From positions 62,001-126,000 of the forward strand of contig NZ_VIAQ01000020.1 of NCBI RefSeq assembly GCF_006546655.1: DNA of 64,000 bases, in the 5' to 3' direction. Position numbers and translations under genes: made by a program. The notes under the pieces were generated by a model that was not told the DNA's origin, ran no database searches, and was given only the letters and a program-made list of their open reading frames with translations. This stretch comes from Methanolobus vulcani. GTDB lineage: Archaea; Halobacteriota; Methanosarcinia; Methanosarcinales; Methanosarcinaceae. Shown here piece by piece: positions 11,068-45,206 of the stretch (its first letter is position 1; each line of letters begins with the position of its first letter).

Positions 11068-14000
11068 AAAAACCTGATTATAGTATTGGAATTGACATTG
11101 GTTATTCATCTATCAAAATTGCACTTATCGATGAATCTAATAACATTGTTCATACAGACTATCTAATTCACAAAGGGAAAACCAGAGAATGTTTGAAAAA
11201 AATGCTTTCAGAGCTTTTACAGAACTATGATGCTTCCAACATTACAATAGGTGCAGTAACAGGCAGTGAAGGCGGGATATTAAGCACAGAACATAAACAG
11301 AATCATGTAAACAATGCTGCATCCCTCATCGAAGGAAGCTTGGTATTGAATGAAAATGTCCGGTCCATAATAGAGATTGGCGGTGAAACTTCCAGATACA
11401 TAACTGGATTTGATAATAAGGACAAGTCATCAATCGAGATTTCAGCAAACTCTAATTGCTCAGCAGGTACTGGCTCTTTCCTTGAGGAACAGGTTTCAAG
11501 ACTAAATATGAGCATTGAAGACTATTCTGCCTGTGCTGCAAAAAGAAAAGAAATCCCCCGAATTGCAGGCCGATGCAGTGTTTTTGCTAAAACGGACATA
11601 ATTCATCATCAGCAGGAAGGTGTACCTGTTGAGAGTATTTTACAGGGACTTGCCTATGCACTTGTCAGAAACTACAAGGCATCAGTAATTAAGAAACTCC
11701 CGATCAAAAAACCCGTTCTCTTTGCAGGTGGAGTTGCTTACAACGAAGCTATTGTAGATGCAATGAGAAACATCCTTAAGCTAAGTGAAGATGAGTTAAT
11801 TATCCCTGAAAAGTGTGGTAATGTAGTTTCAATTGGTGCTGCTGTGCTGGCAAAGGAACAGGCTCTGAAAATAGATATTCAAAAATTACTGAATAAACTT
11901 GAATCATCAGATGAAAAACCTGCAGAAACAGTAAAGGGCATAAAGTTGTCTGCACTTTGTCCTTTTGGTAGGGGAGATACAGATGGAAAACATGTCTGTG
12001 AACCAATTACGAATATTAATGGACAAAAAACAAACTGCTATCTTGGAATCGATGTAGGGTCCACCAGTACCAATCTGGTATTAATCAACGAAAATAATGA
12101 CATTGTAGCTTACAGATATCTGAGAACACGAGGTGATCCTGCCAGAGCAGTAATGGATGGTCTTGCAGATCTGGGACACGAATTTGGAGACAGTGTACAA
12201 ATAGCAGGTGCTGGCACAACCGGCTCCGGCAGATACATGATCGCAAATATGGTTGGTGCAGATGTCATAAAAGATGAAATCACAGCCCAGGCAAAAGCCG
12301 CATCAACAATAGATGATTTTGTAGATACGGTCTTTGAAATCGGTGGACAGGATTCAAAATACATAAGCATAAACAACGGCATGGTCACTGATTTCCAGAT
12401 GAACAAAGTCTGTGCTGCAGGAACAGGATCATTTGTCGAAGAGCAGGCCAGCAAGTTTGATATTCCCATAGATTCTCTCGGGGATTTAGCCATGGAAGGT
12501 ACTGATCCAGCATATCTCGGAGAAAGGTGTACTGTTTTTATCGAAACAAGTATTGCAACACATCTGGCTAAAGGCGCGAAAATAGAGGACATCTCATCAG
12601 GACTTTGCTATTCCATAGTCAAAAACTACCTGAACAGGGTAGTTGGCCAGAAAAAAATAGGCGATAAGATCTTCCTGCAGGGTGGAATAGCATATAATCA
12701 GGGAATAATAAACGCATTCAGATCACTGACTGGAAAAGAAATAATAATACCTCCGTTTTTCAGTGTGACAGGAGCCTATGGTGCAGCCGTTCTATCTAAA
12801 GAAGGAATGAAGCAGGTTGATTCCTCATTTAAAGGATTCTATATTGATAAGTCAGATATTCAATTTACCAAACCTGAAAAGCCGGAGAGAAAAGCCGGAA
12901 AGGGATCAGAATTCAAGAAGAGGATGAACAAGTTCTCATTTGCAGGTCATGATGCAAGCATGGATGAGAACAAAAAGACCATTGGTGTCCCGAGAGCCCT
13001 TTTTAATTATGGAGGAATGTTCTCCCGCTATAATATTTTCTTCAAAGAACTTGGCTTTAATATAATGCTGTCCAGTCCTACAACTGAAGATACCATAAGA
13101 CTGGGACAGGATAATGCTATAGAAGAAACCTGCTATCCGGTGAAACTCATAAACGGACATGTTGCAGAGCTAGTCAACAAAAATGTTGATTATATCTTTT
13201 TCCCCAGCCTTTACACATCAGCTCATCCGAGGTCACCCAGTCGCAGGAGCTTTGGTTGTCCTTACATGCAGCTTGCTTCAAAGCTGGTTGATCAGGCAAT
13301 GGAACTTGATAGTAAAGGAATTAAATTGCTTTCTCCCACAGTAGCACAAAGTTTCGGGGATGAATTCATGGATGAGAGCTACATGTCACTTGGGCTTCAG
13401 CTTGGGAAGAGTCCCGAGGAAATAAAGATGGCAAGGCAGAAATCCTACAAGAAGTCAGAAAAGATGCGTGAGGAAAGGAAAAAGGAAAGACAGAATACTA
13501 TCAAAGAGCTCAGGGATGATGAAAAAGCTATTGTTCTTGTGTCAAAGATCTACGGTGTTGTGGACCCGATCCTGAACCTTGGAATTCCAGAAAGACTTGA
13601 AGAGATGGGATACAAAGTTCTTTCATTCAATAATCTTCCTGAGAATGACATCTCAGAAGAGCATCCCAACATGTTCTGGCCTTTTGGCCTGCATATCCTG
13701 GAATCAGCAAAAATTGTCCGGGAACATCCTAATATGCATGCAGTACTGCTCACTCACCATGGCTGCGGACCTGACACAGTTTTCTCACATTATTTCAGGG
13801 AATTAATGGGAGGAAAGCCATTCCTCAATATTGAAGTTGATGAACATTCATCTGATGTTGGTGTGATAACACGACTTGAAGCTTTCATTAACAGTATTGA
13901 TTCAAAAGCAACACTTGATGAAAGCAAAATAGCATCATTCATTCCACATGGAAAAATTGAGACCGAGATATCATGTGTACCGGAAGATGCAGATATCTAT

Positions 14001-19549: not shown

Positions 19550-20860
19550 ATGGAAAAAATTATAAAAGTCATGCTAGTGTTGTCGGTTCTGACAGCTATG
19601 TTCGTAACACCGGTAAGTGCAGAAGCAACCTACAATATTCGAAGCACCGTATATGACAGCACAGATTCTTCAATAGATGTCGGAGATTACTACTGGGATG
19701 CAAATACTTTTTCAGGGTTTTTGTATATGATAAAGCCTGGACTTTCCAGTGAACTTCTTTATCTCCATAACAGTGCAAACTCTTCAAAGAGGATTCAACT
19801 TGATGATACTATTAAAGAAGGCGATCTTTACTACATAAGCAAACCTCAGATGAAAAAGACAAAGATAGCCGGTTCAGATGATGGTGGCACATTCATGGTC
19901 GATGATGTTGACCTTGAAAAATATTATCTTATGGGTTTCTTCGGTTCCAAGTATACTGCAATGCCAGAAGATCCTTCAGCACTTTCACAGGGCTGCAAGC
20001 CTGATAAGATCGCTAAGATCATGTTGGAAAGCGATGAAAAGAAAAACGTGGCATCTGGAGAGGAGTGGACACTTGCAGGTGGATGGACACTGGTTGTAGA
20101 TCAGGTAGATGTTGACGGGGAAAAAGTATGGGTACACCTGAACTATAAAGGTGAGGAAATTGACAGTGGAGTGATCAGTTCCTCTGCAAATCTGACTAAT
20201 ATGGAAAGAACCTATCTCTACAAGGACAGCGATGATTATCCGGTATTCTACTGTACTGTTGAATCTATTTTCAGAGGCACTGATACAAACTTTGCAGTTT
20301 TCAAATATGTATTTCTTCGTGGTGACATCATCACAATTGAAGAAGATTCAACATACGGCATTTTTGATGTTGAAGGATTTGAAGTACCAGCTCTTATGAA
20401 TAACATTAATTACGCAGGTAGTGCCGGAACTACTGTGCTTAAGACCGGCCAGGATGCTCTTGTGCTCACCAGCAATGAGGCAGTAACCTTGAGTGCTGAT
20501 AAACAAATTGATCTGTATGGCGGGCTTTACCTTAAAACAGAAGAAGTCACTAAGAATCCATGTCTTAAAATGACACTCTGGAAGACATGTACTGCAAAAA
20601 GTCCAGCTACAACTACAACTGCGGCTGCAGCACCAGCTGAAGAAGAAGTTGTTGTAGTTGATATGGGAGAGGCAGAGGTAACAGAAGAATCCGAGGAATC
20701 AGAATCACAAGCCAGTACCACCGATGAAGAAACTGTTGAAGTAGATATGGAAGAAGCCACTCCTGAAGTTGAAAGTTCTGTCAGTACACCAGGTTTTGAA
20801 ATAACTATTGGAATTCTGGGACTTGTTGGCGCTCTGCTTCTATTCAAACGCCAGCAATAA
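19550..20860 (+). CDS. S-layer-type surface protein (DUF1608) with PGF-CTERM anchor
   Basis: A 436-residue exported protein. The signal peptide runs to about residue 25 (VTPVSAEA). It is followed by one copy of the methanogen S-layer domain (AGSDDGGTFMVDDVDLEKYYLMGFFG, FAVFKYVFLRGDIITIEEDSTYGIFDVEGF). A Thr/Glu-rich stalk follows (about 345-410), then a C-terminal TPGFEITIGILGLVGALLL helix and a basic tail: the PGF-CTERM signal recognised by archaeosortase A. Classical Methanosarcina S-layer proteins carry two such domains; this one has a single domain and is about half as long, so it may be a minor envelope protein. A GGAG site precedes the ATG. Confidence 0.85.
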   Translation: MEKIIKVMLVLSVLTAMFVTPVSAEATYNIRSTVYDSTDSSIDVGDYYWDANTFSGFLYMIKPGLSSELLYLHNSANSSKRIQLDDTIKEGDLYYISKPQMKKTKIAGSDDGGTFMVDDVDLEKYYLMGFFGSKYTAMPEDPSALSQGCKPDKIAKIMLESDEKKNVASGEEWTLAGGWTLVVDQVDVDGEKVWVHLNYKGEEIDSGVISSSANLTNMERTYLYKDSDDYPVFYCTVESIFRGTDTNFAVFKYVFLRGDIITIEEDSTYGIFDVEGFEVPALMNNINYAGSAGTTVLKTGQDALVLTSNEAVTLSADKQIDLYGGLYLKTEEVTKNPCLKMTLWKTCTAKSPATTTTAAAAPAEEEVVVVDMGEAEVTEESEESESQASTTDEETVEVDMEEATPEVESSVSTPGFEITIGILGLVGALLLFKRQQ

Positions 20861-30824: not shown

Positions 30825-31060
30825 TGATTTTTGTGAATAATAATAAGAAACAGATAGTTCATGAAAGGAATAGGCAGATCGCTATCATTCGGCGTAACAG
30901 GTTACTTCTCAAGGCAAACATACCGATTCTTGGCATAGGTCTTGCGCTTTCATATTTTGGATATTCAAACATAGGTGAACCGTTGATCTGGCTCGGTATC
31001 ATTATATTCTTTTATGCCGCAGGTTCGAGCTTCATGGCTAAGAGAAATTTGAAAATGTAG
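30824..31060 (+). CDS. Small two-helix membrane protein, function unknown
   Basis: About 78 residues. A basic N-terminus (KKQIVHERNRQIAIIRRNR) is followed by two hydrophobic helices (NIPILGIGLALSYFGYS; LIWLGIIIFFYAAGSSF) and a short basic tail. The GTG at 30824 overlaps the sua5 stop; a second GTG at 30833 could be the true start. I do not recognise the family. Context suggests co-transcription with sua5. Confidence 0.55.
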   Translation: MIFVNNNKKQIVHERNRQIAIIRRNRLLLKANIPILGIGLALSYFGYSNIGEPLIWLGIIIFFYAAGSSFMAKRNLKM

Positions 31061-31774
31061 GTGCTGAGTTTATTGTCTTACTTAAATCAAGTACGTATCA
31101 ATCTTAAGCAAAAGTGTTTCTTCAGGTTTTATTTCACTTGAAAACATAATAAAATATGGGTGGGTCAAATTGTCTCCGACAGCCCCTGCTTGAAGGGACA
31201 GCTCATTTCGTACCACAACTACTAGATACCACCAGCAAGCAACAAAGAAAGTAAGGGGCAGGAAGTAAGGTCAAGTATGTGAGTTACTTATTACTTACTT
31301 ACCTGTCTCTTATTTTAACAGGTTATCCTGACTTCTTTTCTTGTTCATCATTTAAGGTATTATCTTACACAATTCAATATCCATTTTAAGCTTTATTTAA
31401 AACTATTATCAAATGACTAAAACAGTTAACTTCTGAATAATCATCCACAGTATAGTTTCGTTAGTATTTATTTCCTGTAAAGGCAATCTCTTATTGGTGG
31501 CATGACTTGTCTCCAAAGCTTGTTTAGAAGAATATATCCTTTTAGGAAATACCACCACGTACCACCCTAAAATACTTGGGGAATAAATGGCTCAGCTGTT
31601 TATTCCTCATAACTGTTCTATTTGCTTGCTGATTATCTTATGGTTTGTTCTTTGATCACTAATATCTGTTATATTTCAAAATAGGAAGCTATATAACTTC
31701 ACAGGTAAAAACAGAGAAGAGTTACTGATTAATTTTGGAGTTCATACCAATAATGCGGTAACCGGGGTTATATT
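31061..31774. other. Long gene-free region upstream of the cohesin gene
   Basis: About 710 bp without a plausible gene. Visible items are a direct repeat AAGTAAGG (31250 region) that can pair imperfectly with CTTACTTACCTG about 40 bp downstream, and TACCACC repeated twice around 31550 with one more copy near 31226. An A/T-rich promoter-like stretch near 31685-31700 probably serves the cohesin gene. No RNA gene is recognised. Confidence 0.4.
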
Positions 31775-33268
31775 ATGTGGAGTAATAACAAGTATTTAAA
31801 AATCCTAGTTCCTACACTCTTTATTTTAATGGTGGCAGTAGGGAACGTATCTGCAGCAGCATCTGTTATTATATCACCTGACTCGCAAAGTTTTTTGTCA
31901 GCTGGTGATACCTTCTCAGTAGATGTTATTGTGGATTCTGCTGGAACAGATCTAAGTGGTTTTGATATTCGTGTGGCATATGATACGTCTGTCCTTAGTG
32001 TAACAGGTGCTACTTACTCAGGTCTGATGTCCGGTATGCTTGTCGAGCAATATGAAGATGATGGTGAAATATTAGTTGCAGTGCTAGGTAACGAACCTTA
32101 TATTTCATATGAAGAAGAAACTATTCTTACTATTGACTTCAAGGTAATGGATGGTGCAGCAGATGGTACTTACAGTCTGGACTTTAAAGAAGTAAGGCTT
32201 CAAAACGAAAACGGTAAGGATCTAAGTGGTACAGCAACCGGAAGCATAGTTGGTGTGGGAATTGAAGTCGATGCTACCTCTACGCCTCCGGGGTCCATTG
32301 ACCTGGGCAGTCCGGTAAAAAGTACATCAGTTTCTAGTTCAACATCGGTCAACTCAGTTGAACAGGTCGGGTATTCATATATTTTCGGCTCCACTCCTGT
32401 TGATTATGAAGTATTGGGCAGATATGGCCAGCTACAGACCGGAGCAAACTGGTCTCAGGAAGTGCTGACACTTGAAGGTCGTGTTGAGGATGAGCTGAAA
32501 GAGTATTTTTTATGGCATGGAAAGGTCACATCTCTTGGAACGAATTCCGATGGATACCTGGTAGTTGTATTTTATGAACCTCTTATGGTCGAAAGGTCGG
32601 AGATAGAGGATATCTATGATATAATTGATGCAGCAGCAAAGGATATGGATATAGACAATGTGCCTGTGGAATTTGGAGAAGGCAATATTCCTGCAATCAG
32701 TGATGATCTTCAGGAATTGATGACCAGGACACAGGAAATAGAAAATGAGGGAATTGATAATTTCATGAATGCTCAAAGTTCTCTCTATGATCCGGCAGTT
32801 ATAGCCACATTTGGTGACATCCCCCGGATAAGAACTGAAAAAGAATGCTGGCAATGGTATTTCCAGGATTCATATGATATCTCCCTTGGCATCGGGGATG
32901 AATTCGATAGCGATTTACGCAGTGGAGTACTCCTAAGTACCAGATTATCTCCGGGTGGATATTTTGAGATAGATATCAATCAGGAGGCAGATGTGGACAG
33001 AAAGTCATTGACGGACGAGGTATATGCGATAATTAACAGGGAGGCATTGGATATTGGGGTAAGTGAAGTTCCGGTTGTTTTCAAACTCTCTGCTCCTGAT
33101 GAAAGCGAAACATTGACATCTACTTCGGAAGAAGAGACCGTGGAAACGGAAGATGTAGAAAACCAGGTACAGGAAACACCTGGGTTCAATATTGCTATCT
33201 CCCTTCTTTCCATTTCAATGGTATGCTATGTGATAATCAGATTTGGGAGGCGTGTTAATGAGGACTGA
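31775..33268 (+). CDS. Exported single-cohesin protein with PGF-CTERM-like anchor
   Basis: A 497-residue protein. The signal peptide runs to about residue 27. Residues 28-150 form a type I cohesin-like domain (DTFSVDVIVDSAGTDLSGFD, VTGATYSGLMSG, LTIDFKVMDGAADGTYSLDF). The middle holds two copies of a short module ending IYDIIDAAAKDMDIDNVPVEF (about 257-305) and VYAIINREALDIGVSEVPVVF (about 392-435), also present in the HEAT lipoprotein at 6942-7802. The C-terminus is TPGF, a hydrophobic helix and FGRR, a PGF-CTERM-like tail. Cohesins bind dockerins, and a dockerin protein is encoded 0.7 kb downstream. A role as an anchored scaffoldin is inferred. Confidence 0.78.
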   Translation: MWSNNKYLKILVPTLFILMVAVGNVSAAASVIISPDSQSFLSAGDTFSVDVIVDSAGTDLSGFDIRVAYDTSVLSVTGATYSGLMSGMLVEQYEDDGEILVAVLGNEPYISYEEETILTIDFKVMDGAADGTYSLDFKEVRLQNENGKDLSGTATGSIVGVGIEVDATSTPPGSIDLGSPVKSTSVSSSTSVNSVEQVGYSYIFGSTPVDYEVLGRYGQLQTGANWSQEVLTLEGRVEDELKEYFLWHGKVTSLGTNSDGYLVVVFYEPLMVERSEIEDIYDIIDAAAKDMDIDNVPVEFGEGNIPAISDDLQELMTRTQEIENEGIDNFMNAQSSLYDPAVIATFGDIPRIRTEKECWQWYFQDSYDISLGIGDEFDSDLRSGVLLSTRLSPGGYFEIDINQEADVDRKSLTDEVYAIINREALDIGVSEVPVVFKLSAPDESETLTSTSEEETVETEDVENQVQETPGFNIAISLLSISMVCYVIIRFGRRVNED

Positions 33269-33283
33269 TAAGAAGGAATGCTT

Positions 33284-33685
33284 ATGAAGAACCAGATAAG
33301 AATGATACCTTTTTTGAAAAGGTTTTTTCTTTATCTCACTATTTTTTTCATTTTATGGATTCCAATAGGCGGAAGGTACTTTGCAGCTTCTGTTGTTGTC
33401 GTTGATTTCCAGAATTTCTTCTTATTCTATCTCCCTTTGAATTTCATCCCTTTTGCTGCCCTTGTACTTGCAACATCTCTTGAAAGGAAAATGACTGTAA
33501 AGATCCTTATTATAGGTCTTATAATTACGATTATTTTCAATTTCACAATAGTTTATCTTCAACTGGCCTTTTTTTCTTACCAGGAACAATTGCTCTATAT
33601 TTATGCGATCGGAAGGATTGCTTTTCCATTTCTTCTATGGCTGGTCTTTACTTACGACAAGCTGCTTATTACTTTACAGGGTTAG
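33284..33685 (+). CDS. Four-helix membrane protein, function unknown
   Basis: About 133 residues with four predicted transmembrane helices (RFFLYLTIFFILWIPIGG; FFLFYLPLNFIPFAALVLA; ILIIGLIITIIFNFTIVYL; IGRIAFPFLLWLVFTY). The ATG at 33284 has AAGGA six bases upstream, so it is preferred over the ATG at 33278. It lies 15 bp after the cohesin gene, probably on the same transcript. No family is recognised; it could assist export or anchoring, but nothing in the sequence shows this. Confidence 0.55.
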   Translation: MKNQIRMIPFLKRFFLYLTIFFILWIPIGGRYFAASVVVVDFQNFFLFYLPLNFIPFAALVLATSLERKMTVKILIIGLIITIIFNFTIVYLQLAFFSYQEQLLYIYAIGRIAFPFLLWLVFTYDKLLITLQG

Positions 33686-33906
33686 TTCTTCTGAACGATC
33701 GTTTCCTTGTTTTTATTTTCAATATCCGAGTCAATTATTATTAAGAAATTTATTGCTTAATGAGTAATATTGTTCTGTAGCATTGTTTCTGAACATTATT
33801 TGCAAAAACAGTTCCTAATATCTATTTCTTATCGGTTTATAATATCTGACTTCATATGATTAAATGGGGTTGTCGGTGGGTCTAATCCAGGGCAACTTTT
33901 GCAGGT

Positions 33907-33944
33907 ATCATTGAACGAGTGGACACTAATCATTGACGAGTGGA
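33907..33944. repeat. Direct repeat 22 bp apart upstream of the dockerin-protein gene
   Basis: ATCATTGAACGAGTGGA (33907-33923) and ATCATTGACGAGTGGA (33929-33944) differ by one base deletion and start 22 bp apart, about two helical turns. They lie 58-95 bp before the large surface-protein start. The surrounding 315-bp gap (33686-34001) shows nothing else except a weak GTTGTC/GGCAAC pairing near 33870-33895. Confidence 0.5.
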
Positions 33945-34001
33945 GACGGAGTCATGTTTGATGGTACGGTATGTATGGTCTAAGAAAGGAGGATTTTAAT
34001 A

Positions 34002-37000
34002 ATGAAAATGAAAATCCAGCGCGGGCTATTATTAGTTGCTGTTGCTCTTGTTACTATTTGTATGATAGCAGCTACTGCCAGTGCTGAAGATGATGTAAAT
34101 TCATTGAGAATCTACGGTGAAGATGGACTCAGTGCAGCATTTCCATACACTGACCCTGAAGCTCCCTTCGATCCAATGAACAATGAATCGCCAGTGAAAG
34201 ATTTTGTAACATTCAATCCGGCTGTATTGGAAAACACTGATATTTTCGTAAACAATATCGATTCCAAGCAGAAGGTTTTTGCAACACAGTGGTTCGTACC
34301 CGAGTACACCGAACCTACTGGTATGGTATGGCTTGATAAATTTGATCGCTGTTTTGAGCGTACACTTGATGACGGAAGTGTAGAGGACGCATCAGAGCTG
34401 TTAACTGATGATGAGCTAAGAGAGATCTCTTTTGATGAGTTCCAGAAGCCCATACTGAAGGTTGAATGGATACCTGATCACAACGAGTATACATGGGAAG
34501 ATGTGGTCACAGAATTTACCTACATGTTCGTCGACAAGCACTACGAGCCAGTGAGTGCAACTTCAAAGAGTTCAACTGGCGCTTATTGGACATCATTCTT
34601 GTTCCCAGTTGCAGACAATGATGATGAACAGATCGGTCTTGATGATTACGACATGAACGGCGATGGCGTTGATGACATGGTCGTGCTCAAGAAGGTCGGT
34701 GACTTTAACCGTGACGGATATAAGGACGTCATGATCAGTTCTGATAGTATGGTTGTTAGCGTCGGTGATCAAGTACAGTTCCTTGATCATATTGTAGAAG
34801 TCGAAGGTATTTACTACACTGATGGTAAGATTGACAGAGTTGGTCTAAAGGTTTACTACAATGGTAACAACGAAAACACAACATATCTTGACCACCTTTC
34901 TGGTGAAGTTCTTGACACACCTGAACACGTCCTCGGTCCACAGCAGATCGGTGGAGTGCAGATGATCAATATCGAACAGGGTATATTGAGTGCAGGTCGT
35001 CACACAGTGACAAAGGACAGACCACAGTTCTATGAACCATGGTATGTTCAGGTTGAAGCCGCTGGTGCAGGCCTTGATAAAGTTGTTCTGACAGTAGGAA
35101 GGCAGCTCTATACAAGAGAGACTTTCTTCGTAGATGGTGCTGAATACGATGTTGCCATGATCTATGGTCCTGATGATAGCTGGTATAACGGCGATGTCAA
35201 GTACATCACACTCAGAAACCCAGTTCCAGAACATGCTGATGTCTTCCTTGAAGACCTGTCTGTTATCAAGAGATGTGTGTATGATGAAGAGATCATACCT
35301 CTGCTCCCACCATTCAACATGGAGCACACAATGATCGATGATATTAACATTCCTCACACAGAGTACTGCTGTGATGTCACGGGATATATAGGCCATGACA
35401 GTTCAACTTATGAGGATGAGTGCATAGATTCTTCATATGACACAGTAAAAGAGAGGAGGATCTTTAACGTTGAGCCACTAGAGATCTACTTCATCAATAA
35501 GGATGATGAGTCAAGGTTCCATACAGACCTGTATGAGATACTTGATGAGAGTGACATCTATGATGAAGGATGGAAGTGGCTGCACATAAGGACAATGCCA
35601 GAATTCTACAAGGAGTTCGTCTATCCAGAACTACCTGATATTGATGATGGTACAGGTGACTTCCTTGTGACCAGTTCCTTCACTGCACCAAACTCAGAAC
35701 TTTGTGACGACTGGGAGGCATATGTCTGCAACCCTGAAAACTATATCATCCCGCCACAGAGACTTATGTTTACCTATGACCAGGAGACCGGAGCAGATGA
35801 TATCTATGTCAACGAGATAGACGACGATACCAATGGACTCAGGGTTTATGGTGAAGGAGACATGGATGCTGAATTCCCATACTCAGCAGACAATCCAGAA
35901 GGACCATTTGATCCACTGAACCCAGAAGCACCTGAGAAGGACTTTGTGACAATCAATCCTGCCCTGATAAAGGCCGCAATTGTTGTAGACAATGAGGATT
36001 CATACGAAAAGGTATTCTTCAGGCAGTGGTTCGTACCTGAGTACACAGAACCAACAGGTATGGTATGGCTTGACGATGTCTTTGGAAAGTGGGTACCAAA
36101 TCATAATGAATATGTATGGGAAGATGTTGTGAACGAATTCAGTTACATGTTCATTGATAAGCACTGCCAGCCAATATCAGGCATTGCAACACCCGATGGC
36201 AACCCATCATGCTTCTGGGACTTGATGAATCTGGATGATCCACTATGGACATACTTCTGGTTCCCGGTTGCAGATGATGATACTCAGATCGGTCTTGACA
36301 GCATGGATATGAACGGTGACGGTATCGACGACCCAACATACCTGTTTGCTGCAACGGACTTCAACAATGACGGTAGAAAAGATGTAGCTCTTGGTTCTGA
36401 GGAATTCGTGGTAGGTGTAGGCGATACAGTACAGTTCCTTGATCACATTGTAGAAGTTGAAGGTATCTACTACGCTGATGGTAAGATCGACAGAGTTGCT
36501 GTAAAGGTTTACTACAACGGTAACGACGAAAACCCAACATATCTTGACCACCTTTCTGGTGAAGTTCTTGATACACCTGAACACGTTCTCGGTCCACAGC
36601 AGATCGGTGGAGTGCAGATGATCAATGTTGAACAGGGTATATTGAGCGCAGGTCGTCACACAGTGACAATGGATATACCTGACTTCTATAACCCATGGGC
36701 AATGCAGGTAACTGGTACCGGCGTAGCCAACGATAAGGTTGTTCTCCGTGTAGGACGTCTGCTCCACACTGGTGAGACCTTCTTCGTAGATGGTGCCGAA
36801 TACGATGTCTCCATGATCTATGGTCCAGGTGATTACGATGTCAAGTATATCACAATCAGGAACCCTGTACCTGAGCACAGAGATGTCTTCCTGGAAGATC
36901 TGTCCGTTATCAAGAGATGTGTATATGATGAAGAGATCATACCTGTACTACCACCATTCAATGGTCCTTACATGATGATCGATGACATTGATCTGGTTCA

Positions 37001-37637
37001 CAGCTCTTCAAACGAGGATAAGACTTGCTATTACTCTGATTTCACAGCTGCTTGTGACCGCACGCTTGATGCTCCTGCCCTTGAAATATACTTCACAGGC
37101 AAGGATGATGAGCCAAGGTTCCACACCAACCTGCTGGAGATTCTCAGAGAATGCTGCGGTATAGTTGGTGTATCAAGTGATACAGTCATTGATGATTGTG
37201 AGACATGGAAGTGGCTACACATCAGTACTATGCCGGAATTCTACAAGGAGTTCGTCTATCCGGATGTGCCTGACTATGATGGAAACAGTGGTGACTATCT
37301 CCTGACAAGCTCATTCACAGCACCTAATACTGATGCTTGTGATGACAGTCTCGAGCCGGTAAGGCTGATGTTCACCTATGATCCAACGGATGGCACAGGT
37401 CTGTACATGAACGGTGGTGTTCCAGCTATAGATGATCCAGATGAACCAGTCGTTGATCAGAGGAAAGGTGACGGTGACGGTGATGAAGACATCGATCTTG
37501 ATGACTTCAGAGCATTTGCCGACGCATATGGCACTGAAGAAGGCGATTCGTACTATGATGTCATCTTCGACATGGATGATGATGGAGATATTGATCTCGA
37601 TGACTTCAGAGCATTTGCAGATGTGTATAATACCTGA
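34002..37637 (+). CDS. Large duplicated surface protein ending in a dockerin domain
   Basis: A 1211-residue exported protein with a signal peptide to about residue 28 (ATASAED). Two homologous halves of about 550-600 residues follow. Each starts with NxLRIYGE/NGLRVYGEG and contains a QWFVPEYTEPTGMVWLD block, a calcium-loop segment (DMNGDGVDD, DFNRDGYKDV) and a nearly invariant block around QFLDHIVEVEGIYY. Residues about 1150-1208 hold two dockerin-type calcium loops (DGDGDEDIDLDDFRAFADAY and DMDDDGDIDLDDFRAFADVY). There is no C-terminal anchor helix, so attachment through a cohesin is likely. AGGAGG precedes the ATG. The function of the repeated halves is unknown. Confidence 0.82.
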   Translation: MKMKIQRGLLLVAVALVTICMIAATASAEDDVNSLRIYGEDGLSAAFPYTDPEAPFDPMNNESPVKDFVTFNPAVLENTDIFVNNIDSKQKVFATQWFVPEYTEPTGMVWLDKFDRCFERTLDDGSVEDASELLTDDELREISFDEFQKPILKVEWIPDHNEYTWEDVVTEFTYMFVDKHYEPVSATSKSSTGAYWTSFLFPVADNDDEQIGLDDYDMNGDGVDDMVVLKKVGDFNRDGYKDVMISSDSMVVSVGDQVQFLDHIVEVEGIYYTDGKIDRVGLKVYYNGNNENTTYLDHLSGEVLDTPEHVLGPQQIGGVQMINIEQGILSAGRHTVTKDRPQFYEPWYVQVEAAGAGLDKVVLTVGRQLYTRETFFVDGAEYDVAMIYGPDDSWYNGDVKYITLRNPVPEHADVFLEDLSVIKRCVYDEEIIPLLPPFNMEHTMIDDINIPHTEYCCDVTGYIGHDSSTYEDECIDSSYDTVKERRIFNVEPLEIYFINKDDESRFHTDLYEILDESDIYDEGWKWLHIRTMPEFYKEFVYPELPDIDDGTGDFLVTSSFTAPNSELCDDWEAYVCNPENYIIPPQRLMFTYDQETGADDIYVNEIDDDTNGLRVYGEGDMDAEFPYSADNPEGPFDPLNPEAPEKDFVTINPALIKAAIVVDNEDSYEKVFFRQWFVPEYTEPTGMVWLDDVFGKWVPNHNEYVWEDVVNEFSYMFIDKHCQPISGIATPDGNPSCFWDLMNLDDPLWTYFWFPVADDDTQIGLDSMDMNGDGIDDPTYLFAATDFNNDGRKDVALGSEEFVVGVGDTVQFLDHIVEVEGIYYADGKIDRVAVKVYYNGNDENPTYLDHLSGEVLDTPEHVLGPQQIGGVQMINVEQGILSAGRHTVTMDIPDFYNPWAMQVTGTGVANDKVVLRVGRLLHTGETFFVDGAEYDVSMIYGPGDYDVKYITIRNPVPEHRDVFLEDLSVIKRCVYDEEIIPVLPPFNGPYMMIDDIDLVHSSSNEDKTCYYSDFTAACDRTLDAPALEIYFTGKDDEPRFHTNLLEILRECCGIVGVSSDTVIDDCETWKWLHISTMPEFYKEFVYPDVPDYDGNSGDYLLTSSFTAPNTDACDDSLEPVRLMFTYDPTDGTGLYMNGGVPAIDDPDEPVVDQRKGDGDGDEDIDLDDFRAFADAYGTEEGDSYYDVIFDMDDDGDIDLDDFRAFADVYNT

Positions 37638-37650
37638 TTGAGGTGTGATC

Positions 37651-39120
37651 ATGACAGATAAAAAGATGAAGGGTCTGGTAGTTTCAGCTACCTCCCTTTT
37701 GATATTTTTCGCATGTTTCATCATGGTAGGTACAGGTCTTGCTGGTGCAGCATCATTGTCAGTTAATCCGGCACTAACAGAGGATCTTGCTCCAACAGAT
37801 ACTTTTTCAGTAGATGTTGTTGTGGATTCTGCTGGAACAGCTCTCAGTGGTATTGACTTTAGTCTGACATACGATACATCTGCTCTTGATGTAACAGGTG
37901 CTACTTACTCAGGTCTGCTGGACGGCATGTACTTCGTGAATTTGAACGATGGTGAGGTATTACTTGCAGCATTGGATAATTCACCTTATACTTCACATGC
38001 AGGAACTGTCCTTACCATTGACTTCGAGGTAAAGGCAGGTGCAGCAGATGGTATGTATGACCTTGAACTGGACGGTGTTACACTGCAAGATGGTAGTGAA
38101 GAGGATATTTCTCCAGTAACTATCAATGATGGTCAGGTAGAGGTTGAAGCAGAGAGCAGTGGTAGTGGAGACGAGGAGGTTCCAGTACTGGAGATCATAG
38201 CTGATACTGGTGTCTTCGGAGTGGGTGATACCTTCCAGGCAACCGTTGTTGTGGATTCTGCTGAAACAGCTCTCAGTGGTCTTGACTTTAGTATGGCATA
38301 TGATACATCTGCTCTTGATGTAACAAGTGCTACTTACTCAGGTCTGCTGGACGGCATGTACTTCGTGAATTTGAACGATGGTGAGGTATTACTTGCAGCA
38401 TTGGATACATCACCCTATGCTTCACAGGTAGGAACTGTCCTTACCATTGACTTCGAGGTAAAGGAAGGTGCACCAGATGGATTCTATACTCTGGATCTTA
38501 CTGATGTCACACTTGAGGACGGAGATGAAAATCCAATAGCAGATGTCGATGTCATAGATGACATTGTTGAGATCGAAACACCTGTAGAAGTGGTCATTGA
38601 AGGAATAGATCTCCTGCCAGGATGGAACCTGATATCAGTTCCGGAGACACTTGAGAATGCAGACGTAGACTTTGTGCTTCAGGATTTCGGCGATACTGAA
38701 GTAGATAGTGTGTTCTATTACAATGCATCTTCAGGCATGATGGAGATACCAGAAGACTTTGAGCCATTAAAGGCATACTGGGTACACAACGATATGGGCG
38801 AGACAGTTACCATCAATGAGACATACCTCGTACCAATGGTACCATCTGTACCACCGATGCTTACGCTCTATCCTGGATGGAATGCAATAGGTCACACTGC
38901 TATGGTAGAGCTGTCTGCAGAGGTTGCTCTTTCCACCATAGATGACTGCTATGTCAAGGTCACTGGACCATGGCTTCCTGCTACAAGTGAATTTGCCTAT
39001 GTGGGCTACAACGGACAGGAAGGTATCATCAATGGTAACCAGGTAGGTACCGATGTATTCGCTATGAATGTGTATGAAGGATATTTCGTATACGTGGATG
39101 AAGAATGTGTATTGGCCTGA
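37651..39120 (+). CDS. Exported double-cohesin protein (scaffoldin-like)
   Basis: About 489 residues. The signal peptide ends near residue 34 (GAASLS). Two cohesin-like domains (about 35-165 and 178-310) are near copies (FSVDVVVDSAGTALSGIDFS; VVVDSAETALSGLDFS; both with YSGLLDGMYFVNLNDGEVLL). The C-terminal 170 residues contain two GWN motifs (LLPGWNLISVP; LYPGWNAIG), a module common in methanogen envelope proteins. No anchor helix is present. The ATG at 37651 is preceded by GAGGTG and lies 13 bp after the dockerin gene, so the two are surely one operon. It can in principle bind two dockerins. Confidence 0.8.
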   Translation: MTDKKMKGLVVSATSLLIFFACFIMVGTGLAGAASLSVNPALTEDLAPTDTFSVDVVVDSAGTALSGIDFSLTYDTSALDVTGATYSGLLDGMYFVNLNDGEVLLAALDNSPYTSHAGTVLTIDFEVKAGAADGMYDLELDGVTLQDGSEEDISPVTINDGQVEVEAESSGSGDEEVPVLEIIADTGVFGVGDTFQATVVVDSAETALSGLDFSMAYDTSALDVTSATYSGLLDGMYFVNLNDGEVLLAALDTSPYASQVGTVLTIDFEVKEGAPDGFYTLDLTDVTLEDGDENPIADVDVIDDIVEIETPVEVVIEGIDLLPGWNLISVPETLENADVDFVLQDFGDTEVDSVFYYNASSGMMEIPEDFEPLKAYWVHNDMGETVTINETYLVPMVPSVPPMLTLYPGWNAIGHTAMVELSAEVALSTIDDCYVKVTGPWLPATSEFAYVGYNGQEGIINGNQVGTDVFAMNVYEGYFVYVDEECVLA

Positions 39121-39143
39121 GGTGAAAGGAAAATGAAAGATTT

Positions 39144-39169
39144 GCAGTGAGTTTTCTCACTGCTTTTTT
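39144..39169 (+). terminator. Terminator-like hairpin after the double-cohesin gene
   Basis: GCAGTGAG, a TTTT loop and CTCACTGC form a perfect 8-bp stem followed directly by six T. It is the best intrinsic-terminator look-alike in the window, placed 24 bp after the stop. Confidence 0.65.
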
Positions 39170-39189
39170 AATTTATCAGAGGTGGACGT

Positions 39190-39858
39190 ATGATTAGTGG
39201 TAAAATATATAGTGTTTCATTGAAGTTCTTAATAATCCTATTCTCACTCATAGTAATAGCTACGCCTGCTGTGGCCATTGGTCCTCCAATTGTATTAGGG
39301 GGAAACTTATTGGTGGATGGAAGTCCTGCATCAGTAGGGACGGAAGTGACAGTGGTTGCTGATGGACAGGTAGTTGCTGAAACAACTGTAACAACCGCAG
39401 GTCTTTTTGGTGATGAACGAAGTAACAGGCTGGGAGTGAGTTCTGATTATGGTATTGTCACACTTGAAGTAGATGGTGTGGAAGCGGCTACAATAGACCT
39501 GAGTAATTATCAGTCCGATGAGATGGTTTCACTCGATATTAGTGCAACTGCTCCTACTTCAACAACAGGAACAGGAGGAACTACCACTTCACATAGTAGT
39601 GGCGGTGGTGGAGGTTTTAGTAGTAGTAGTGCTACGACCTCGGAAACTGTTGTAGAGGAACCAGATGCTGATGTGGATACTGAATCTACTCTTGAAAGTA
39701 CAACCGAGAGTACAATAGCTGAAGAAACGGCTAGTGAAGTTACAGAAGATGTGACGGAAGGATTCTCTTCTGTAAGTGGGACCGGTGGAATTATAGCCAT
39801 ATTTGGTCTAATCCTCATGGGGATTGTCATTGTTGGTTATAGGTCCAAGAAGAAATAG
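39190..39858 (+). CDS. Exported surface protein with Thr/Ser stalk and C-terminal anchor helix
   Basis: A 222-residue protein with a signal peptide (to AVAIGPP, about residue 30) and one beta-sandwich-like domain (GGNLLVDGSPASVGTEVTVV ... VTLEVDGVEA), a pattern frequent in methanogen surface proteins. A Gly/Ser/Thr/Glu-rich stalk (about 120-190) follows, then a final helix (GGIIAIFGLILMGIVIVGY) and a basic tail. The tail resembles archaeosortase-processed signals, but the PGF motif is not exact (EGFSSVSGTGG). GAGGTGG precedes the ATG. The domain may be a small adhesive or stalk component of the cohesin/dockerin locus. Confidence 0.65.
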   Translation: MISGKIYSVSLKFLIILFSLIVIATPAVAIGPPIVLGGNLLVDGSPASVGTEVTVVADGQVVAETTVTTAGLFGDERSNRLGVSSDYGIVTLEVDGVEAATIDLSNYQSDEMVSLDISATAPTSTTGTGGTTTSHSSGGGGGFSSSSATTSETVVEEPDADVDTESTLESTTESTIAEETASEVTEDVTEGFSSVSGTGGIIAIFGLILMGIVIVGYRSKKK

Positions 39859-39944
39859 ACCGAATCTGCAAGTTGGAATTATTTTTTCTTCCAACTTATT
39901 ATTCTATCTGAGTGGGGAACAGCAGATGAAAGATACTGTGACTA

Positions 39945-40184
39945 ATGGGGAGTGGTTACATTAGGAGAAGCAGGACTGCCATTAGCGTGGAGATATTAAA
40001 AACTGCATTGGAGGGAGCTAAAAAAACACATATAGTTTACAGTGCAAACCTGAACTTTGATATGGTTAACAGGTATCTTGAGATGTTAGAGGAAAAAGGT
40101 CTGATTGAACGCAAAGGAAATCTGTATGTAACAACTTCGAAAGGCAAGGAATTCCAGGAGATTGCAAAGGAATTAGGACTTTAA
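39945..40184 (+). CDS. Small winged-helix regulator (COG3432-like)
   Basis: A 79-residue one-domain protein (AISVEILKTALEGAKKTHIVYSANLNFDMVNRYLEMLEEKGLIERKGNLYVTT in two parts). Its helix-turn-helix-wing order matches the archaeal COG3432 group of predicted transcriptional regulators. These often work as DNA-binding dimers. A GTG/ATG-rich start region makes the exact start uncertain. It could control the surrounding surface genes; the 285 bp downstream contain no other gene. Confidence 0.65.
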   Translation: MGSGYIRRSRTAISVEILKTALEGAKKTHIVYSANLNFDMVNRYLEMLEEKGLIERKGNLYVTTSKGKEFQEIAKELGL

Positions 40185-40469
40185 TTTTTTTTATGGGCAT
40201 GTTGTAATCATTCAATATGAGAGTTATTTCTATTCGTAATTAACTTGTACATAAAATATAGGAACTGTGTACATTATCTGTCTTAATTATTTATGAATAT
40301 GCACACACTATTTATTAATTGAGAGTGTCTATGTACATGAATAGTTCTATATAGGGTCATGATATTTATAGTCGTGAACAGACCAATGGTATATTATATC
40401 TCAAAAATGGATGCATGATTATCTCCGGATGATCAATAAAAACACATCCAATAACTTCACGGAGGAAAA

Positions 40470-41222
40470 ATGCTACTCAGAGAATTAATATATGGATTGC
40501 TGCCCTATTCAGTTCATCAAAAGATAGTCAGCTGGAAATGCAAATTCGAAAAACAGGATAATAATTTAATAGAGAATCATCTGGCATTATATCCCCCTTC
40601 TCTCGACATAAACAAAGTTGTAAGGGATGATCTGGATAAGTGTGTTGCCTTTTTACCATATTGTGCTAAGCCTTTAGGCGATCATGCTTGTCCTGTATCT
40701 GACAGGGAGCATAAACGTAAGAATCAGAAATGTATCAAGGTGTCCGGAGGTAAATGCACTGTTCCATGCTCTCTGGGAAATATGGTGGATATTCTTTTAA
40801 AACATGGTTTCACAAAGGACCAGATCTTCATAATTGACCGTGATTCCAATCTTTTCCCCTGGCTCAAACAAAAAAGAGCGGAAGGTTATGAGTATTTCAT
40901 GCCAGGTACAGGTTGCAAATATGGCGTGTCCTATGCACTCGATTATATTGGCGGGAAGCTTGGTTACAAGGGATGCATAGCTTTTGTGGATGACTTTTGT
41001 CCGGAAGACAAAGATAATGGTGTCTGTAAATGCATGAATGATTATCTGGCAATGGAAGGTATTGACAAAGGCAAAAGAACTAAAGTTCATGAAGGTACAG
41101 TTCTCCTGATGGACCGTATACTCTCAGGCAATTATCAGGGTACAAAAGCGGACTCTAACAGTTCCCTTCATAAAAACGAACTTCCTTCAGGTAATGATCA
41201 TTCAGCTTTCCATGGTTATTGA
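40470..41222 (+). CDS. Cysteine-rich DUF116-like protein (copy 1)
   Basis: A 250-residue soluble-looking protein. The central part matches the DUF116 layout: FLPYCAKP, ACPVSDRE, CIKVSGGKCTVPCSLG, an alternating strand-helix segment (IFIIDRDSNLFPWL), then GTGCKYGVSYALDY and a late CPEDKDNGVCKC. About ten cysteines are conserved with copy 2. DUF116 proteins are anaerobe proteins of unknown function thought to bind iron-sulfur clusters. A poorly conserved Ser/His tail of about 30 residues extends copy 1. GGAGG lies seven bases before the ATG. The upstream 285-bp gap (40185-40469) is AT-rich and shows no further feature. Confidence 0.65.
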   Translation: MLLRELIYGLLPYSVHQKIVSWKCKFEKQDNNLIENHLALYPPSLDINKVVRDDLDKCVAFLPYCAKPLGDHACPVSDREHKRKNQKCIKVSGGKCTVPCSLGNMVDILLKHGFTKDQIFIIDRDSNLFPWLKQKRAEGYEYFMPGTGCKYGVSYALDYIGGKLGYKGCIAFVDDFCPEDKDNGVCKCMNDYLAMEGIDKGKRTKVHEGTVLLMDRILSGNYQGTKADSNSSLHKNELPSGNDHSAFHGY

Positions 41223-41468
41223 TCATTATCTTTTTGCCTTATCGGTATATCTCTATTATCATTTTTTTTATTAATACCTGCTATGAATATTCCCTAATTT
41301 TACAAGTTGTTATGTATATTTTTTTATCATTGCAAAAAAACCTATTCCTTCCTTTATTTTATTGTAATGCTAAGGTTTTAGAATTAAATAAGTTATACTT
41401 TATTGTGGGGAAAATAGGCGTATCTTTAGTATTTGGTTTTTAAGGTGGGGGTATAAACGAAAATATCA

Positions 41469-42134
41469 GTGCTGGAAAAAGTATACTCATTTATTCCGTA
41501 TTCATTGAATAAGAGATTGACCGAAAAGAGGTTGAGTTTCAATCAGGTCAATACTCGTTTGCTAAATTACAATATGGCTCTTTCAACACCTTCTTTAGAT
41601 ATTCAGAAGATAGTTGATGATGAGCTGGATAGCTGCGTATCTTTTATTCCCTACTGTGCGAAACCTTCCATTGATTACGTTTGTCCTGCATCTGATATAA
41701 ATATGAGAAAAAACAGGAAATGTTTAAAGCTGGATGGGAAAAAATGCATTGTTCCCTGTTCCTTAGGGAGAATGGTAGATATATTAATGGAGAAAGGTTT
41801 CACAAAAGAAAGGATATTCGTAATTGATAGTGATTCCAATCTTTTCCCCTGGCTCAAAAAGAAAAAAAGTGAGGGTTACAACTATTTCCTTCCGGGTGTA
41901 GGATGCCACTATGGTGTAGGGTACGCGTTGAGATATGTCCAAAAAGAGATTGGTATGGAAGGTTGTATTGTATTCCTCCAGGATTATGATCCTCTGGACA
42001 AAGATCATGGTGTATGCAAAACGATCTTCGATTATAACAACATGGAAAAGATCGATAAGGGCAAAAGAACGAAGATAAGTGATGAATCACTTAGAATTAT
42101 CGAAGACCTCCTTTCCGGGGATCTTGAGATATGA
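41469..42134 (+). CDS. Cysteine-rich DUF116-like protein (copy 2)
   Basis: A 221-residue paralogue of the preceding gene, sharing SLDI.K(I/V)V.D(D/E)LD.CV.F(I/L)PYCAKP and nearly identical DSNLFPWLK and DKGKRTK segments. It lacks the C-terminal extension. The start is a GTG at 41469. Tandem duplication is clear from order and similarity. The 247-bp gap between the copies is extremely AT-rich with no supported gene. Confidence 0.65.
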   Translation: MLEKVYSFIPYSLNKRLTEKRLSFNQVNTRLLNYNMALSTPSLDIQKIVDDELDSCVSFIPYCAKPSIDYVCPASDINMRKNRKCLKLDGKKCIVPCSLGRMVDILMEKGFTKERIFVIDSDSNLFPWLKKKKSEGYNYFLPGVGCHYGVGYALRYVQKEIGMEGCIVFLQDYDPLDKDHGVCKTIFDYNNMEKIDKGKRTKISDESLRIIEDLLSGDLEI

Positions 42135-42438
42135 GTGATGTGAGTAGTGTTGTTGTGGCCAATTATAACTTTACTACGTTCCCTGGATCAAGTCTGATCT
42201 CAAAGAGCATCAGGAATGATGACATCCCTGGTTTGGGTGAGGTCTGGATATATGGGCTAAAGGGCAGTTTGAAGCGATATGTGCCGCATCTTAAAACGGA
42301 CAGTTACCAATGGTGAGTTTGGCACCGGGGTCACAGATGAGGATGTAAAGGTTATTATTGCCGATCAGTTATCAACTACTGATTCCTGCTGGAATGGCCA
42401 TGTTCATTGTATCTCATGGGATTGTGGTGTATTTCATT
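42131..42438 (+). pseudogene. Possible decayed gene fragment (frameshifted, ends in a membrane helix)
   Basis: Three consecutive frames carry protein-like sequence: 42131-42313 (IPGLGEVWIYGLKGSLKRYV), then a shifted frame (NGEFGTGVTDEDVKVIIADQL), then a third frame encoding a hydrophobic helix (LLIPAGMAMFIVSHGIVVYF). The succession in order suggests a broken membrane-protein gene, but no family is recognised and chance is possible. It overlaps the stop of the second DUF116-like gene. Confidence 0.3.
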
Positions 42439-42440
42439 TT

Positions 42441-42465
42441 AGGAGGATTAATTCCTCCTTTTTTT
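42441..42465 (+). terminator. Terminator-like hairpin
   Basis: AGGAGG, an ATTAATT loop and CCTCCT followed by seven T. It ends the DUF116-like transcript. The arms also contain an anti-SD-like CCTCCT. The 200 bp that follow before the next gene show only AT-rich promoter-like DNA. Confidence 0.6.
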
Positions 42466-42687
42466 CCTAAAAACATATACTGATTTGGTTTTGCTGCAAC
42501 GATTAAATTCATTTCATTTTATATTATAGAGTCGAACTGCCTTTTTATGCTGGTATTAAATAAAAACCGTTTTCCTGAACATTTGTACTAAGCAAATTTA
42601 CTGAACTTAGTTTGCTGCATCGATATATATTGTGATGACTAAACCATTATTGAGAAGTGTTTCTTTATGAAATGGGAGCGGAAAATA

Positions 42688-44295
42688 ATGAATAGATTAC
42701 ATGTAATGTTTGTAATGTTGATCATTTTATTCTCCGTGCCCAGTGCCATGGCAATAACCGTGGATGGGGTACGTGGAGTTGGTGAGTGGGACGAAAATTG
42801 GGCTTATGCGCAGTATAATGCTTCATCGTATAATCCCTATGCTTCATTTGGTGACCGAATGGTGGTCAGACAGGGTGTATATAATAATCCTGTCGATCTT
42901 GTAACAGATGAGTGGAATGATATTGACCCCAAAGATGATTCGGGCGGAGATTTTGATGAATCAATGGCAGTAAATGGTGTTGCTGCTACGGACTATTCAA
43001 GTGGCCTTGATGTCAGTAAGATATATGGACATTACGATCCGATAAATGATATTTTGTATGGTATGACTGAAGTTTATGGAATACCCGGAGATGGCGATGG
43101 GAATGGCGAAATATATTCAGAAGAACCAGCTGATGGCGATACAACCGCAGGTCCTGCAGGTTCTGGAATTGGACTGACCGAGTCTTGGGTCATCAGGATT
43201 ATTCAAGTATCTACGGGTGATTCTTCACTTATCCTGGTGAACGCTAATGCGTGGACAGTTTCTTCTAGTGTCGGTATGACGAATTCGGACGTATATGCCC
43301 ATTTGACATCTGATCACTTCAATGTGGCCAATCCTGATGATCTGCCAAAGTCCGTCTATGAAATCAGCATTTCAGATTTCAGTACTTTCTATGACGTGAG
43401 CCCAGGGGAAGTTCTGGCGGTAGAGGTATTATCTGGTTCATCCGGTGATAGTTCTGTTGGTGAAGATACAGCTGTTGTTTTCATCGAGATTCCAAATCCT
43501 GAGATTCACATAGAGAAGGCAACTAACGGCGTTGACGCAGATACTTATGAAGAGGCTCCTGAACTAAGTCTTGGACAGGATGTGACATGGACCTATGTTG
43601 TCACTAACACTGGAAATGTACCACTGGCAGATGTTGAAGTTACGGATGATCAGGGTGTAATTCCAGTCTTCCAAGGCGGTGATACTGACGGAGATGGTCT
43701 CCTTGATCTGACTGAGACCTGGACTTATGAGGCAGAAGGCACTGCTGAATGTGGTGACTACGAGAATGTTGCCGACGTCGTAGGTTATTATGGTGTCATT
43801 CCAGTAACAGATGATGACCCGAGTCACTATGTTGTAAGCTGCGAACCTGATATTGACATTGAGAAGTCAACTAACGGTTTTGATGCAGATTTCCCTTCAG
43901 GTCCTGCGATAGAAGTTGGTGAGACCATAACCTGGAAATACGTTGTAACCAACACCGGGGATGCAGCACTGACGAACATTGTCGTTGTGGATGATGTCAT
44001 TGGCACTATTGGTAATGATAAGATCACTGACAAGGCCGATGGCGATGATGTTCTTGAGATAGGAGAGGAATGGACCTATATTGTCACTGATACACTGGAG
44101 GAATGCACTCCTCTGTACAAGAACACTGGAAATGTGACCGGTGAAGCTGTAGATGATGGAACTGTTGTAACAGATGAAGATCCAAGTCACTACCACTGCA
44201 AATCTGTAGTTCCAACACTGACGCCTGTTGGTATACTGGCCATGATCGGTGCGCTTGGAATTCTTGGAATGGTCACGCTAAGAAGACGTGATTAA
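42688..44295 (+). CDS. Exported protein with DUF11-like repeats and VPXXXP-type C-terminal sorting signal
   Basis: About 535 residues. A signal peptide ends near residue 24 (PSAMAITVDG). A 240-residue N-terminal domain (DGVRGVGEWDENWAYAQYN) resembles choice-of-anchor exported domains. Two DUF11/CARDB-like beta repeats of about 115 residues follow (HIEKATNGVDAD ... WTYVVTNTGN; DIEKSTNGFDAD ... WKYVVTNTGD). The C-terminus reads VVPTLTPVGILAMIGALGILG and ends RRRD: motif VPxxxP, hydrophobic helix and basic tail, the signal described for archaeosortase B. The archaeosortase gene lies 50 bp downstream. The start at 42688 follows GGGAG. Confidence 0.8.
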   Translation: MNRLHVMFVMLIILFSVPSAMAITVDGVRGVGEWDENWAYAQYNASSYNPYASFGDRMVVRQGVYNNPVDLVTDEWNDIDPKDDSGGDFDESMAVNGVAATDYSSGLDVSKIYGHYDPINDILYGMTEVYGIPGDGDGNGEIYSEEPADGDTTAGPAGSGIGLTESWVIRIIQVSTGDSSLILVNANAWTVSSSVGMTNSDVYAHLTSDHFNVANPDDLPKSVYEISISDFSTFYDVSPGEVLAVEVLSGSSGDSSVGEDTAVVFIEIPNPEIHIEKATNGVDADTYEEAPELSLGQDVTWTYVVTNTGNVPLADVEVTDDQGVIPVFQGGDTDGDGLLDLTETWTYEAEGTAECGDYENVADVVGYYGVIPVTDDDPSHYVVSCEPDIDIEKSTNGFDADFPSGPAIEVGETITWKYVVTNTGDAALTNIVVVDDVIGTIGNDKITDKADGDDVLEIGEEWTYIVTDTLEECTPLYKNTGNVTGEAVDDGTVVTDEDPSHYHCKSVVPTLTPVGILAMIGALGILGMVTLRRRD

Positions 44296-44345
44296 TTCCA
44301 ATCCTCTCTTTTTTTTCTTTTTTGATATCTGCTGGAAGAGTTACA

Positions 44346-44954
44346 ATGAAAAAAGACAGGAAACTTAAGGGTAGCAGAAAACAAAAGGCTGCAGAAAAGG
44401 TATCTATTCCTTCAATCGGTCTTAAAGTCCATGTAGTGAGTTTTCTGGAAAAGAATAAGACAGTACTTAGATTTGTAGGTCCTTATCTGTTTTACATAGC
44501 ACTTTTTACAGGGATATATGTGATCTTCCAGGATAGGTTTGTCTTCCTGAGTACATTGACCGCAAATACACTTTCTGGTATAATGTCTCTTTTAGGGGTG
44601 GAAAGTTATTCCTACGGTCAGTCTGTTTATATGGGTGGTATCTCTGTATTGGTCATAGATGAATGTACGGGCATCTATGAACTGCTGGTCTATGCAGGAT
44701 GTGTGCTTGCTTATCCCACAACGTTGCGTAACAAATTCATGGGTCTGGCTCTGGGTGTACCTGCAATGTTGATCATAAATATGTTCAGGCTGATCTTCCT
44801 CTCTTTCATTGGGATTATGTATCCTTCACTTTTTAGCTATATGCATTACTATCTATGGCAAATAACCTTTATTTTCCTGATAGTTATGCTTATGTTACTA
44901 TGGATAGAGAAAATAGTAAAAGCGGGAGTATTTGAACAACATAAAGTGAATTAA
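44346..44954 (+). CDS. artB: Archaeosortase B-like membrane transpeptidase
   Basis: A 202-residue polytopic protein of the exosortase/archaeosortase family. The catalytic triad is visible: Cys107 in VIDECTGIYE, Arg148 in NMFRLIFLS and His167 in YMHYYLWQ. These enzymes cleave C-terminal tripartite signals and are thought to attach the protein to a membrane lipid. The neighbour encodes a protein with a VPTLTP signal, the type assigned to archaeosortase B, so substrate and enzyme form a dedicated pair. The ATG at 44346 is chosen over an upstream TTG (44322). The N-terminus is a basic cytoplasmic tail of about 40 residues. Confidence 0.85.
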   Translation: MKKDRKLKGSRKQKAAEKVSIPSIGLKVHVVSFLEKNKTVLRFVGPYLFYIALFTGIYVIFQDRFVFLSTLTANTLSGIMSLLGVESYSYGQSVYMGGISVLVIDECTGIYELLVYAGCVLAYPTTLRNKFMGLALGVPAMLIINMFRLIFLSFIGIMYPSLFSYMHYYLWQITFIFLIVMLMLLWIEKIVKAGVFEQHKVN

Positions 44955-45155
44955 AAAGGATTATTTATTCAAAGGTGAGTAAACAACAAACATCACCAAC
45001 TTCATTACAAAGTATGATGTATGGGGGTCAATTTGTCTGATAGTCCGGTTAACTCACTATATTTTTTATATCTCTGGCATGAAGTCGAATTAGTTTATTT
45101 AATTTAACATTTCAATAGGTTTTTAACCGATAACCCTTATAGTACAGCAGGATTC

Positions 45156-45176
45156 CCATGAAAGCTGCTTTCATGG
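45156..45176. promoter_or_regulatory. Perfect 9-bp inverted repeat upstream of sufC
   Basis: CCATGAAAG, a CTG spacer and CTTTCATGG, located 30 bp before the sufC start. It could be an operator near the transcription start or a leader hairpin. No regulator is visible in the window. Confidence 0.5.
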
Positions 45177-45206
45177 ATATATTGTCATAAAAAAGGAGGC
45201 CATATT

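Follow-up and report, generated by a model that had tools for sequence, protein, structure and literature searches.

For years, cohesin and dockerin modules have been known that belong to no cellulosome and have no assigned function; in uncultured ANME archaea, a role in contact with partner bacteria has been suggested for them. A locus in the genus Methanolobus raises the question of what such modules build in an archaeon. The locus lies in a stretch of 64,000 nucleotides (the window, here meaning the whole stretch that was analysed) from a genome of 2.92 Mb on 20 contigs, and it comprises five co-oriented genes, A to E, that form one set (Table 1). The initial annotation described A as an anchored single-cohesin protein, D as an unanchored double-cohesin protein, and C as a 1211-residue protein ending in two dockerin calcium loops; it proposed a surface complex, not for cellulose breakdown, with A as anchor and C as client. 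We arrive at a probability of roughly 0.8 that the products of the locus form a cohesin-dockerin assembly of the cell surface that depends on calcium and is not a cellulosome, a reading built on comparison of sequences and predicted folds.

Table 1. Features of the A-to-E locus and its island (positions of the window).
Feature	Position	Strand	Basis or remark
Optional island	30825..45206	+	flanked by sua5 and sufC; the whole block is absent in G005
A: exported, 497 aa, one cohesin, C-terminal membrane segment TPGFNIAISLLSISMVCYVIIRF	31775..33268	+	PF00963 E 6.3e-9
Cohesin of A; nearest are the D cohesins of the same genome	31859..32266	+	cohesin comparison
B: small hydrophobic membrane protein, 135 aa	33278..33685	+	distant relative adjoins archaeosortase B in G039
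C: exported client, 1211 aa, two units of ~550 aa and a C-terminal dockerin	34002..37637	+	
C, first large repeat	34080..35825	+	67% identical to second repeat
C, second large repeat; beta-rich model, pLDDT 80	35826..37421	+	no fold match at E <= 0.001
Dockerin of C: two calcium loops of F-hand type; both repeats are of recognition type LD.FRA	37467..37634	+	
D: unanchored, scaffoldin-like, two cohesins and GWNLISVP-type C-terminal module	37645..39120	+	PF00963 E 5.2e-23, two stretches; model
D cohesin 1	37750..38154	+	PF00963 E 2.5e-14
D cohesin 2	38182..38583	+	cohesin comparison
D C-terminal module, conserved in D orthologs	38605..39117	+	
E: small exported protein, C-terminal membrane segment; third in the conserved C-D-E order	39190..39858	+	
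Exported protein, VPXXXP-CTERM-like sorting signal, same island	42667..44295	+	TIGR04143 29.2 bits, just under cut-off of 30
Archaeosortase B, same island	44322..44954	+	TIGR04144 E 5e-56

The described architectures of A and D were both borne out, with signal peptides and membrane segments of A to E read by eye. D has a signal peptide and two cohesin stretches, without a membrane segment or a dockerin of its own, and the region of A between its cohesin and its membrane segment is without a Pfam match. The placement of C and D in one operon was correct but incomplete, as the operon also holds B and E. The real start of D is probably the ATG at 37651, downstream of a GAGGTG that is kept in most orthologs and 13 bases beyond the stop of C. 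In E, the signal peptide is followed by a Ser/Gly-rich stretch and then the membrane segment. None of the sorting-signal models scored above its own cut-off against the C termini of A and E; a PGF-like motif is visible in A. B belongs to no family in Pfam or NCBIfam, and its relative in G039 (locus L044) is 32% identical (E = 3e-9). At positions 10144 to 12571 of that locus, from another family of the order, a VPXXXP-like protein, archaeosortase B, and the B relative adjoin a distant C-D-E set. Right after E, the islands with all five genes encode two related cysteine-rich proteins without a Pfam match (window 40470-41222 and 41469-42134). Outside the island, window positions 19550 to 20860 encode an S-layer (PF07752) protein with a PGF-CTERM signal.

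The identity of the A and D domains as cohesins is beyond doubt, for both proteins by sequence and for D also by fold. The PF00963 matches on A and D both exceed the curated Pfam cut-off. Used alone as a sequence query against solved structures, D found no match, and a profile was required: a profile of all cohesins recovered solved cohesins, including 1g1k (3.7e-13) and the archaeal 2xdh (1.4e-11). The AlphaFold2 model of D matched the ScaA cohesin dyad 3l8q at 3e-13; it also matched single cohesins, for which the target TM-score was about 0.8.

The two calcium loops reported at the end of C are present (residues 1156 to 1211; DGDGDEDIDLDD and DMDDDGDIDLDD, spaced 33 residues), but they make up a single dockerin module. 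As in type I dockerins, there are two calcium loops of 12 residues, each with Asp at its first and twelfth positions and a helix after it; these Asp residues, which are calcium ligands, are invariant in both loops across 32 dockerins, and both helices appear with high confidence in the predicted model of the window dockerin. The window dockerin alone gave no match to Pfam Dockerin_1 (PF00404). The dockerins of its orthologs in five genomes (G024, G007, G012, G009, and G001) exceed the Pfam cut-off, and the solved dockerin 2y3n (1.7e-8) was recovered with a profile built from the C repeat together with the dockerin.

In an alternative reading, C belongs to the S-layer lattice itself, and the cohesin proteins do no more than staple it. 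C is large, duplicated, secreted, and beta-rich, and the second-ranked fold match of its repeat is a Methanosarcina S-layer domain (3u2g), at a nonsignificant E of 0.015; moreover, ANME-2c proteins with both S-layer and dockerin domains are on record (Chadwick 2022, PMC9012536). We nevertheless regard a lattice role as unlikely. C has no match to the Pfam S-layer family (PF07752), comparing its profile with those of S-layer proteins encoded in its own genome returned a probability of 1%, and S-layer genes of the Methanosarcina type are present separately in that genome. In addition, C is present in 14 of the 27 Methanolobus genomes searched (its own included) and missing from the other 13. Within the preferred cohesin-dockerin assembly, C would most likely contribute to an outer protein coat or act as an adhesin.

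We also examined the conservation of the gene set. Nine genomes besides that of the window have A-B-C-D, and E was seen in all of these but one, where the contig ends within D. Four further genomes have C-D-E without A and B, which counts against the assembly as we propose it. The window, G024, and the four C-D-E genomes have a D with two cohesins; most others have three. In G005, a close relative, sua5 stands directly before sufC; the flanks are closely similar to those of the window (sua5, 90% identical; sufC and the next genes, 85 to 97%), and everything between 30825 and 45206 is missing, including archaeosortase B and the VPXXXP-like protein. Because the whole block is missing there, the A-to-E set constitutes an optional island. 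The C-D order is also found in other lineages and families of the order, down to about 25% identity in C, for example in Candidatus Methanoperedens and G039. In these distant pairs, D follows C wherever a single contig allowed both genes to be read; most of the C proteins retain the terminal dockerin, and cohesins are retained in D. At about 25% identity, C of G039 ends in a classical dockerin, and its D has three cohesin-like repeats that were recognized by eye and missed by our own profile. The full C profile matched 33 of 186 genomes, many of them through the dockerin alone. Two C-D pairs (L051 and L056) come from short contigs that had been assigned to a CSSED10-310 bacterium and to a Thermoplasmata archaeon; these contigs are probably misbinned Methanosarcinales.

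If the dockerin of C plugs into the cohesins of D, the two might be expected to change together, and they do. Across 13 loci, dockerin identity and D-cohesin identity were strongly correlated (r = 0.92), also when the C body and the D tail were taken into account (partial r = 0.89; 0/20000 permutations, a count that serves as a guide and not as an exact probability, because the species are related). Between the window and the other nine loci, the C body is 62 to 73% and the D tail 67 to 80% identical, but the dockerin only 50 to 57% and the cohesins 38 to 48%. The pattern is sharper between G007 and G001, where the C body (83%) and the D tail (84%) are well conserved but the dockerin (45%) and the cohesins (35%) are not. 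In the window, the cohesin of A is 46% identical to the D cohesins of its own genome versus 32 to 38% to other A and D cohesins; it has changed along with the D cohesins, which fits a common partner. In G024, dockerin and D cohesins have changed and the A cohesin has not, being 23% identical to D of its own genome and about 35% identical to the majority type. The proposal that A anchors C is thus supported in part, by the window but not by G024, and with its single dockerin C would not normally bridge A and D.

Joint change of this kind could also arise by linkage alone. The dockerin, at the 3' end of C, adjoins the cohesins in the 5' part of D, so that a single recombination tract could move both, and their exchange would then say nothing about binding. 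In G007, the replaced segment is indeed continuous from the end of C through the D cohesins, with unchanged flanks. Given this adjacency, only A and unlinked clients argue beyond linkage, and both do: the A cohesin of the window changed too, though most of the intervening C did not, and clients encoded on other contigs carry the same recognition type. We therefore consider linkage as the whole explanation quite improbable. The proposed surface complex with C as dockerin client gains support from the domains and from this joint change, which suggests that plug and sockets really are partners.

The unlinked clients were examined through 18 dockerins that the same genomes carry on proteins other than C. 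These match the C type of their own genome at positions 10, 11, and 13 to 15 of both repeats (excess identity 0.33, 0/5000; still 0/5000 with like types collapsed), and the ten positions of highest excess are exactly these. At the other dockerin positions, the excess was 0.018 (486/5000). Positions 13 to 15 were picked after the alignment had been viewed, but the canonical positions 10, 11, 17, and 18, which were fixed beforehand, gave the same verdict (0/5000; 35/5000 with types collapsed). With related species, these counts too are to be taken as guides and not as exact probabilities. The carriers are CAP proteins, NosD-like beta-helix proteins, cohesin-dockerin adaptors, and, by eye, one protease-like and one phospholipase-like protein; the CAP2 dockerins of G002 and G004 are exceptions that differ from the C type of their own genome. 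In 12 of 14 C proteins, both dockerin repeats have the same residues at positions 10, 11, and 13 to 15, though species differ, as expected for the dual binding known from clostridial dockerins (PMC4728124). It is possible, if doubtful, that each Methanolobus species has its own plug-and-socket type, common to all its secreted clients of that class. If so, secreted proteins would attach to cells of their own kind only, and a switch of type would need the sockets and several unlinked plugs to change together.

The conserved pairing of the genes, the joint change, and the shared recognition types make it very improbable that the cohesin-like and dockerin-like domains are structural modules with no relation to each other and no mutual binding, a reading that draws on the failure of Pfam to detect the window dockerin. 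A polysaccharide-degrading cellulosome is hardly credible, since the resemblance lies in the shared modules (cohesins, dockerins, and a multi-cohesin protein, D being a noncatalytic scaffoldin with several cohesins), whereas none of the three dockerin proteins of the genome has a glycosidase match, Pfam finds cohesins only and no carbohydrate-binding module on D, and Methanolobus is a genus of methylotrophic methanogens.

A role in cellulose breakdown had been denied from the outset, and the search for further dockerins agrees: our own dockerin profile, which includes the window sequence and whose score for C is not independent, found only three in the whole genome, on C, on a CAP-domain protein, and on a protein of contig C9 that has a cohesin of its own. 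The genome has eight to nine cohesins, of which the three at the A-to-D locus are by far the closest to the profile. The CAP-domain (SCP-like) protein is exported and has a C-terminal dockerin (G000 contig C15, about 157835 to 158776; L046:7836-8777) of type DFRAFA, the type of C.

The assembly can be sketched from features that are read directly, namely domains, export signals, gene order, conservation, the linked change of plug and socket, and the genome-specific recognition type; binding and its dependence on calcium are what we infer from them. C would be secreted, fold with calcium, and use its dockerin to plug into a cohesin. Through its two cohesins (most relatives have three), D would collect two or three clients, and A, with one cohesin and a membrane segment, could hold one client at the cell. 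The CAP-domain protein, encoded elsewhere, would be a second client for the same sockets. Having a single dockerin, C would normally occupy A or D and not both; a chain of the form A-C-D was rejected, as C carries one dockerin. Since D lacks both anchor and dockerin, it would have to be tethered through its C-terminal module or through the clients, and this is the weakest part of any model of the locus.

To our knowledge, the cohesin and dockerin of Archaeoglobus fulgidus are single modules, and we know of no multi-cohesin scaffoldin there. They resemble the Methanolobus set as archaeal non-cellulosomal cohesins of the same fold (PDB 2xdh; Bayer 1999, cited in PMC9012536). Non-cellulosomal archaeal cohesins and dockerins and scaffoldin-like proteins of ANME archaea have already been published (Chadwick 2022, PMC9012536; Timmers 2017, PMC5244752). 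The ANME proteins are alike in coming from Archaea of the same order or phylum, in including multi-cohesin scaffoldin-like proteins, in having dockerins on surface proteins, some with S-layer domains, and in not serving cellulose breakdown. They differ in that they are described as domain lists, the scaffoldin-like protein carries a dockerin, and ABC-transporter binding proteins are common clients. The Methanolobus set, in contrast, is a defined island: the client is giant and duplicated, the scaffoldin lacks a dockerin, and a single-cohesin protein is anchored. Comparison of the sequences of this set points to matched specificity, and its genus has cultivated species. With clostridial cellulosomes, such as the type II cohesin dyad of Acetivibrio cellulolyticus ScaA (3l8q), it shares tandem cohesins, a two-faced calcium-loop dockerin, and, in some Methanolobus genomes, adaptors with cohesin and dockerin; it differs in that no glycosidase clients or carbohydrate-binding module were found.

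Our literature search turned up no publication on Methanolobus proteins with cohesins or dockerins. The novelty lies in the defined island, the architecture conserved across families, the natural empty site, and the sequence-based case for type matching within genomes. The set is compact and occurs in a genus with cultivated species, with close relatives including M. vulcani, M. bombayensis, M. psychrotolerans, and M. profundi. Because nature supplies matched and mismatched plug types in this cultivated genus, the use that archaea make of these modules becomes directly testable, in relatives of the ANME archaea.

Two further kinds of cohesin protein were observed in the genus. Exported proteins of 231 to 251 aa with one cohesin and one dockerin, like the adaptor scaffoldins of cellulosomes, are encoded in G021, G019, and G012 (L066, L067, and L069). 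A second kind of cohesin cluster (L081 to L086, in G024, G019, G002, and G004) has a 180-aa single-cohesin protein beside proteins of 450 to 911 aa that end in a cohesin and, in part, in a dockerin-like stretch.
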